The notes under the pieces were generated by a model. That model was not told the DNA's origin. It did not search any database and saw nothing but the letters and a program-made list of their open reading frames with translations. Below are positions 16,887 through 53,865 of a stretch of DNA of 64,000 bases, one piece after another. Numbering within the stretch: the stretch's first letter is position 1; the number at the start of each line of letters is the position of its first letter. The stretch is taken from the NCBI GenBank assembly GCA_025351325.1, contig JANXWE010000061.1:1-64000 (forward strand). Direction: 5' to 3'. Made by a program: the position numbers and the translations under genes. This DNA comes from Fimbriiglobus sp. GTDB lineage: Bacteria; Planctomycetota; Planctomycetia; Gemmatales; Gemmataceae.

Positions 16887-17014
16887 CCGTGGCGGCCAGT
16901 TTTTAACTGGCCGTCACGGTGCGCAAAACCATACAAGTCATGGTTTTTAGGCAATATTCTCGTACGGATTCACTGATCCAGACTCGTCGACCAGTTAAAA
17001 ACTGGTCGCCACGT
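16887..17014. repeat. REPIN-like inverted palindrome doublet A
   Basis: 16887-16919 CCGTGGCGGCCAGTTTTTAACTGGCCGTCACGG (15-bp arms, one G/T mismatch) and, in opposite orientation, 16988-17008 CGACCAGTTAAAAACTGGTCG followed by CCACGTACG. Confidence 0.7.
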
Positions 17015-17124: not shown

Positions 17125-17706
17125 ATGTTGTTGTTGCCGACTATCGCTCTTTTGTGTCTTTGGAGCCAGCCTTTTCAGGTCATCGGCAATGTAGACGGCA
17201 GTGATTTGCAAAATAGCAAACATGCTGTCAGGTTTAATCTTGGCACTCATGGCTCTGAATGTTGGTTTGACGCGTCAGCATTTAGCGGATACGGAAAGGC
17301 TTTGATACGTAATTCGATTTTCTCGCTGTAAGTCCTTACGTGATCGACGTAAGTCCAATGATTTGGACGCCGAATCCGAATTACGTATCAAAGCCGATAC
17401 GGAAAGGCAAAACTGTATGTCAAGATTTACGAATCTGACATCAAAGCGGTTGATCGGTTTAGTATTGAATCGCCATCGAAATTTAATGGATTCGCAGTAT
17501 CTAGAATTGTTGTGTCGAAAGGATCCATGAAATATAATAAGCATGATGGCTACTATTATGGGTCTGTTGATAATCTCTTTTACCACCCTTTGTTTGACAC
17601 TGCACTCCGCATTGGCGTAGACGGAAAACACGAAATCCGTTGCGTCGACAAAAAAAATACTAGCACCTCGACCATAAGGATTGCACATTCATACCACGGG
17701 AAATAG
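17125..17706 (+). pseudogene. secreted hypothetical protein gene interrupted by a palindromic insertion
   Basis: Both halves (ORFs 17125..17331 and 17512..17706) are in the same frame. Removing the 98-bp element plus one 10-bp duplication gives a continuous 157-aa ORF (...SGYGK|AKLYVKIYESDIKAVDRF...). Confidence 0.75.
17298..17395. mobile_element. MITE-like palindromic insertion with 19-bp perfect TIRs and 10-bp TSD
   Basis: TIR GGCTTTGATACGTAATTCG ... CGAATTACGTATCAAAGCC; flanking duplication GATACGGAAA at 17288-17297 and 17396-17405; internal hairpins CTTACGT-GATCG-ACGTAAG (17335-17353) and GTCCAA-TGAT-TTGGAC (17353-17368). Confidence 0.85.
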
Positions 17707-53767: not shown

Positions 53768-53865
53768 CCGTGGCGACAAGTTTCCAACTTGTCGCCACGG
53801 TTTCTCCGATCAATGCGACTAGTACCAAGCCATTGTCGACAAGTTGGAAACTTGTCGCCACGTAG
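53768..53865. repeat. REPIN-like inverted palindrome doublet B between nuoH and nuoI
   Basis: 53768-53800 CCGTGGCGACAAGTT-TCC-AACTTGTCGCCACGG (perfect 15-bp stem, starts right after the nuoH stop); 53837-53857 CGACAAGTT-GGA-AACTTGTCG followed by CCACGTAGG. Confidence 0.8.

Follow-up and report, generated by a model that had tools for sequence, protein, structure and literature searches.

The 98-bp element at positions 17298-17395 of the window (the whole 64-kb stretch of DNA analyzed here) is very probably a solo-ends derivative of larger transposons, 3.3-4.4 kb long. In their family, the transposase combines an IS5/IS903-like DDE domain with a SWIM zinc finger at the N-terminus. The element itself is ordinary, and the available evidence supports its classification as a MITE. 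Its interest is that it leads to a transposon family that often carries restriction or methylation enzymes.

Structure of the 98-bp Element

The element lies inside a perfect 10-bp duplication, and its terminal inverted repeats (TIRs) match at 19 of 19 positions. It contains no transposase-coding open reading frame (ORF), and its size is within the MITE range (about 50-600 bp). The features of the locus are as follows.

17125-17331, + strand: ORF in place (68 aa), stopped by the TAA at 17329-17331 within the element
17125-17706, + strand: orphan, putatively coding ORF of 157 aa, obtained for the empty site by fusing 17125-17297 with 17406-17706
17288-17297, no strand: left target site duplication GATACGGAAA (10 bp); the exact 10-bp duplications of four other full copies each differ from it
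17298-17316, + strand: left TIR GGCTTTGATACGTAATTCG; top-scoring window match of a matrix built only from transposon ends
17303-17316, + strand: predicted +6 site for the transposase, TGATACGTAATTCG; agrees at 13/14 bases with the third site in the left end of the G129 transposon
17324-17335, + strand: first internal repeat, decayed, CGCTGTAAGTCC; most other copies have CGACGTAAGTCC
17335-17353, + strand: internal hairpin 1, 7-bp perfect stem, CTTACGT-GATCG-ACGTAAG
17345-17356, + strand: second internal repeat CGACGTAAGTCC; also present in MITEs from two other genera
17354-17367, + strand: internal hairpin 2, 5-bp perfect stem, TCCAA-TGAT-TTGGA
17377-17395, - strand: right TIR, perfect complement of the left; holds the second +6 site
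17396-17405, no strand: right target site duplication GATACGGAAA

Folded as DNA, the MITE strand reaches -27.2 kcal/mol (z = -8.1), a value equaled by none of 200 shuffles. An earlier reading made from the sequence only had described the 98-bp element with its 19-bp TIRs and 10-bp duplication, the two perfect internal hairpins, the 108 bp made up by the element and one duplication, and the in-element TAA that ends the ORF, all of which are borne out.

Removal of the MITE and one duplication leaves the 157-aa ORF open, as that reading had also claimed. It had further stated that the insertion splits a secreted protein gene; the interruption of an ORF by a stop codon stands, but the gene is putative, with no relative of the joined 157-aa protein among 95 genomes of the family. 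Gene disruption by the insertion is only plausible, since an ORF as long arises in 5 of 500 shuffles of the region and the interrupted one lacks relatives. For the same reasons, the boundary of the element, previously placed by the restoration of coding, is more securely drawn from the duplications and from comparison with the other copies.

Two REP/BIME-like pairs also occur in the window (16888-17013 and 53769-53862), one just upstream of the MITE-bearing ORF. Their units are palindromic, CGTGGCG(G/A)C(C/A)AGTT..AACT(G/T)G(C/T)CG, and form inverted pairs with 26- and 29-nt arms; single relatives are found near 1309, 13680, and 15801. Like REP/RAYT elements, the MITE is short, palindromic, multi-copy, and without a transposase. 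To our knowledge, REPs have neither a target duplication nor paired TIRs, whereas the MITEs described here have exact 9-10 bp duplications.

Copies in the Genome and in Relatives

Further copies with distinct 10-bp duplications, for which the sequence-only reading had proposed to search, are present in the organism's own genome (G000; 5.09 Mb, 382 contigs), which has seven copies of 80-100% identity. Five full copies lie in exact and mutually different 10-bp duplications (GATACGGAAA, GTGACACATA, GTAGGAATGG, ATCCATCCTC, and CCACGACATG). A sixth (L007) has a duplication matching at 9 of 10 positions, as read by eye, and a nested 22-bp palindrome inside, and the seventh is truncated. The MITE has jumped into at least six places of this genome. 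A diverged copy at L053 2876-3005 (G000:C115) contains a nested 22-bp perfect palindrome, GGTAGTGGCCTAGGCCACTACC, with CGAAATTC repeated on either side.

No copies of the MITE were found in three other genomes of the same genus. Relatives were sought by the end pattern GGCTTTGNNACGNAANTC in 95 genomes of the same family, probably Gemmataceae, with the backward pattern as a control. The pattern recovered multi-copy or paired small elements in G000, G014, G033, G039, G121, and G131, as well as a relic end in G040; the control gave two matches in total. Exact duplications flank these small elements, of 9 bp in G014 (three copies), G039, and G121, and of 10 bp in G131 and G033. Among 398 genomes of the class, the exact TIR pattern gave only scattered single matches outside the family, and no pairs, and the MITE had no match in a plasmid collection.

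The SWIM-DDE Transposon Family

The search for a mobilizer started from the DDE_Tnp_1 genes of G000 and G014. A GGCTTTG end follows the ones that encode a SWIM zinc finger at the N-terminus, and a search from this end for its partner led to complete transposons.

G000:C83 11275-15001: G000 transposon, 3727 bp, TIR 18/18 GGCTTTGTAACGCATTGA, duplication CAAGAATCGG 10/10
G129:C355 7616-11537: G129 transposon, 3922 bp, TIR 18/18, duplication CCTCCCGCGC 10/10
G014:C1309 439-3827: G014 transposon, 3389 bp, TIR 17/18, duplication CCTGGCTAC 9/9
G047 transposon, decayed: 1913 bp, TIR 17/18, duplication 8/9

The full transposons of the family measure 3.3-4.4 kb, and transposase profile matches occur in 22 of the 95 family genomes. 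G040:C253 was rejected as a full element, as it is a right-end relic only. Elsewhere, family transposons occur in tandem (L182 11358-15723, G129:C41), where the order right end, 9 bp CTTCCTTGT, left end is seen two times, with identical 9 bp in both. At L065 1839-1930 (G014:C426), a SWIM-DDE gene is broken by a short palindromic insert of a different kind.

The transposase matches PF01609 above its cut-off (2.6e-20), and the SWIM domain PF04434 is found at 9.2e-7 in one homolog and below threshold in the other. The best NCBIfam model is NF033579 (IS903), at 90-121 bits and so below its cut-off of 140, compared with 352 bits for IS903 itself, and a Pfam scan of the two transposase homologs revealed no PF13737 (N-terminal DDE part). 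Alignment with IS903 gives 21% identity with the DDE residues in register; in our own reading of the alignment, a YREK-type C-terminal motif appears to be in register as well. An AlphaFold model of a homolog was set aside (mean pLDDT 53.8), as its DDE core was modeled without confidence. In the GmrSD-carrying copy (L183, G014:C1309), the transposase has a glycine at the position of the catalytic glutamate (RSNVGST), and is therefore probably inactive.

The family resembles the IS903 group of the IS5 family in its GGCTTTG ends, DDE_Tnp_1 domain, best match to NF033579, and 9-bp duplications. It differs in the N-terminal SWIM finger, the lack of PF13737, the NF033579 score below cut-off, an element three times longer, the passenger genes, and the 10-bp duplications of some members. 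A search of the open literature, with ISfinder outside its reach, returned no insertion sequence with a SWIM zinc finger transposase, and the transposon family is apparently undescribed.

Architecture of the Transposon Ends

Four complete transposons were compared. Their left ends hold a 14-bp site (TGNNACGNAANTC type) three times in direct orientation, at +6, +24, and +44/45, and their right ends have one site at +6 and inverted copies with their 5′ ends at 43 and 63. At the right end L178, the site at 43 starts with CG instead of TG. The sequence of the site varies between elements, whereas the spacing is constant.

A spacing score that rests on internal repetition only, and not on sequence, ranges from 15 to 24 at real ends, and a score of 14 was reached by none of 242 shuffled candidates. 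The score was applied to ten transposase-encoding contigs of a viral collection, none of which had served to derive the rule, and left-right pairs were found in seven. Four independent contigs of this collection (L186, L187, L191, and L192) have both ends as well as exact 9-bp duplications. Planctomycetes and contigs of the viral-sequence collection both harbor the family, and the spacing of the sites is enough to locate its ends. If real, the family would offer a natural series for the study of transposase and end sites changing together.

Probable Path from Transposon to MITE

The derivation of the MITE from this family is indicated first by its ends. The ends of five transposons served to train a matrix, and its two best matches in the 64-kb window are exactly the two MITE ends (12.8 bits; training mean, 12.4). 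Both ends carry GGCTTTG and the site at +6. The length of the duplication is also the same for MITEs and transposon within a genome, at 10 bp in G000 and 9 bp in G014. In other genomes the match between ends is closer: the G131 MITE end is 17/18 identical to a transposon of the same genus (G129), and the G039 MITE end is 18/18 identical to the right-end relic in G040. The G000 MITE end reaches 15/18 at best, to a G129 end, besides the near-identical third left-end site listed above. The TIRs of the G000 MITE and the G000 transposon agree at only 12/18 positions, although they share the end type and the 10-bp duplication length. Given these values of 12/18 and 15/18, either the assembly lacks the exact source copy or that copy has been lost, and the G000 assembly contains no autonomous copy whose end is GGCTTTGATACG.

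The extra sites of the transposons (left +24/+44, right inverted 43/63) are absent from the MITE, which is therefore a derivative and not a full member of the SWIM-DDE family. No significant internal transposase site was detected in the MITE (p 0.2-0.7 for most copies tested). Since full transposons have two extra sites per end, the single-site ends of the MITE may be poor substrates for transposition.

The sequence-only reading took the element for a non-autonomous MITE mobilized in trans. Its copies and their distinct duplications support this reading, with the movement in trans presumed from sequence. In the proposed mechanism, a full transposon would supply the transposase in trans, which would bind both MITE ends at their predicted 14-bp sites (+6) and cut at the GGC termini. 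The MITE would then be joined to a target whose strands are cut 9-10 nt apart, and repair of the staggered ends would produce the duplication. At the window locus, such an insertion would have put a stop codon into an ORF of no known function.

A wider joint reading is held tentatively, at somewhat less than even confidence. Under it, the SWIM-DDE transposons would form an undescribed branch of the IS5 superfamily with fixed end spacing and fast-changing site sequence, and the SWIM finger region is suggested to help in reading the sites. Their cargo would preferentially be restriction and DNA-modification genes, and the one-site MITEs would be their parasites.

Alternative Explanations

The MITE could instead be moved by a classical transposase of the IS903 group (IS5 family), as MITEAba12 of Acinetobacter is thought to be moved by ISAba12. 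MITEAba12 is a 113-bp element without a transposase that has a GGCTTTG TIR start (GGCTTTGTTGCACAAA) and 9-bp duplications, and its source, the approximately 1.04 kb ISAba12 with a single transposase gene, was inferred from end identity (PMC6382973). The present MITE is comparable in lacking a transposase, in its TIR start, and in having a source inferred from its ends, and it matches the end of IS903B (GGCTTTGTTGAATAAATC, 9-bp duplication) at 13/18 positions. However, it occurs in another host phylum, the TIR of MITEAba12 goes on with TTGCACAAA, and the duplications in G000 are 10 bp. The transposons here also differ from ISAba12 in being 3.3-4.4 kb long and in carrying extra genes and three sites at each end. 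Both the 10-bp duplications and the ACG/AATTC portion of the ends fit the SWIM-DDE family better than IS903. PF13737, which IS903 itself matches at 134 bits, is absent from the 95 family genomes, although the control genomes are also silent, so this absence is not proof. Mobilization by an IS903-group transposase is accordingly considered improbable.

It is similarly doubtful that the MITE is kept for a cellular role (as a terminator, promoter, or protein-binding site) in which its conserved internal CGACGTAAGTCCTTA repeats are functional. The strong fold would suit such a role, as would the repeats, which are common to MITEs of three genera whose ends differ (L051, L105, L009, and window 17324-17356). 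However, the copies are few and scattered, none occur in three congeneric genomes, and the other 93 family genomes lack the exact double repeat; in the viral contigs, the double repeat CGACGTAAGTCC was not found. A cellular role could coexist with mobility. The CGACGTAAGTCC repeats were also considered as extra transposase sites and rejected, as their scores were not significant. An occurrence of CGACGTAAGTCC beside a DDE gene (L057, G000:C54) belongs to a different IS with the TIR AGGCCGTGTTGATT.

An IS4-group mobilizer, suggested by the sequence-only reading from the length of the duplication, is very unlikely. Members of the IS4 family (IS231, ISH8, and IS4 subgroups) do share duplications of about 10 bp, but the tabulated subgroup ends begin with CAT, CA, AAT, CT/CW, or YT, and never with GGC (PMC2266710). 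A better-matching family with the same duplication length and an IS5/IS903-like SWIM transposase is present in the G000 genome. Finally, the palindromic form of the element, and an interrupted ORF that has no ortholog for comparison, might suggest a local inverted duplication or an ancestral, immobile part of the locus, but this is refuted by the six further copies elsewhere, of which the full ones lie at unrelated sites in different exact duplications.

Cargo Genes

Restriction or DNA-modification genes occur in five of twelve paired elements of the SWIM-DDE family.

L183: GmrSD-type (PADLOC HEC-06, 1e-170)
L186: HsdR_N and N6 methylase
L187 and L191: N6_N4 methylases
L193: 871-aa N6 methylase

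The G000 transposon carries three cargo genes of no recognized kind. If real, the family would be a route for defense genes to move in these bacteria. At L049 1405-4687 (G014:C1163), on a contig that stops before any right end, genes for HsdM and HsdS (Type I restriction-modification) begin 72 bp inside an isolated left end.
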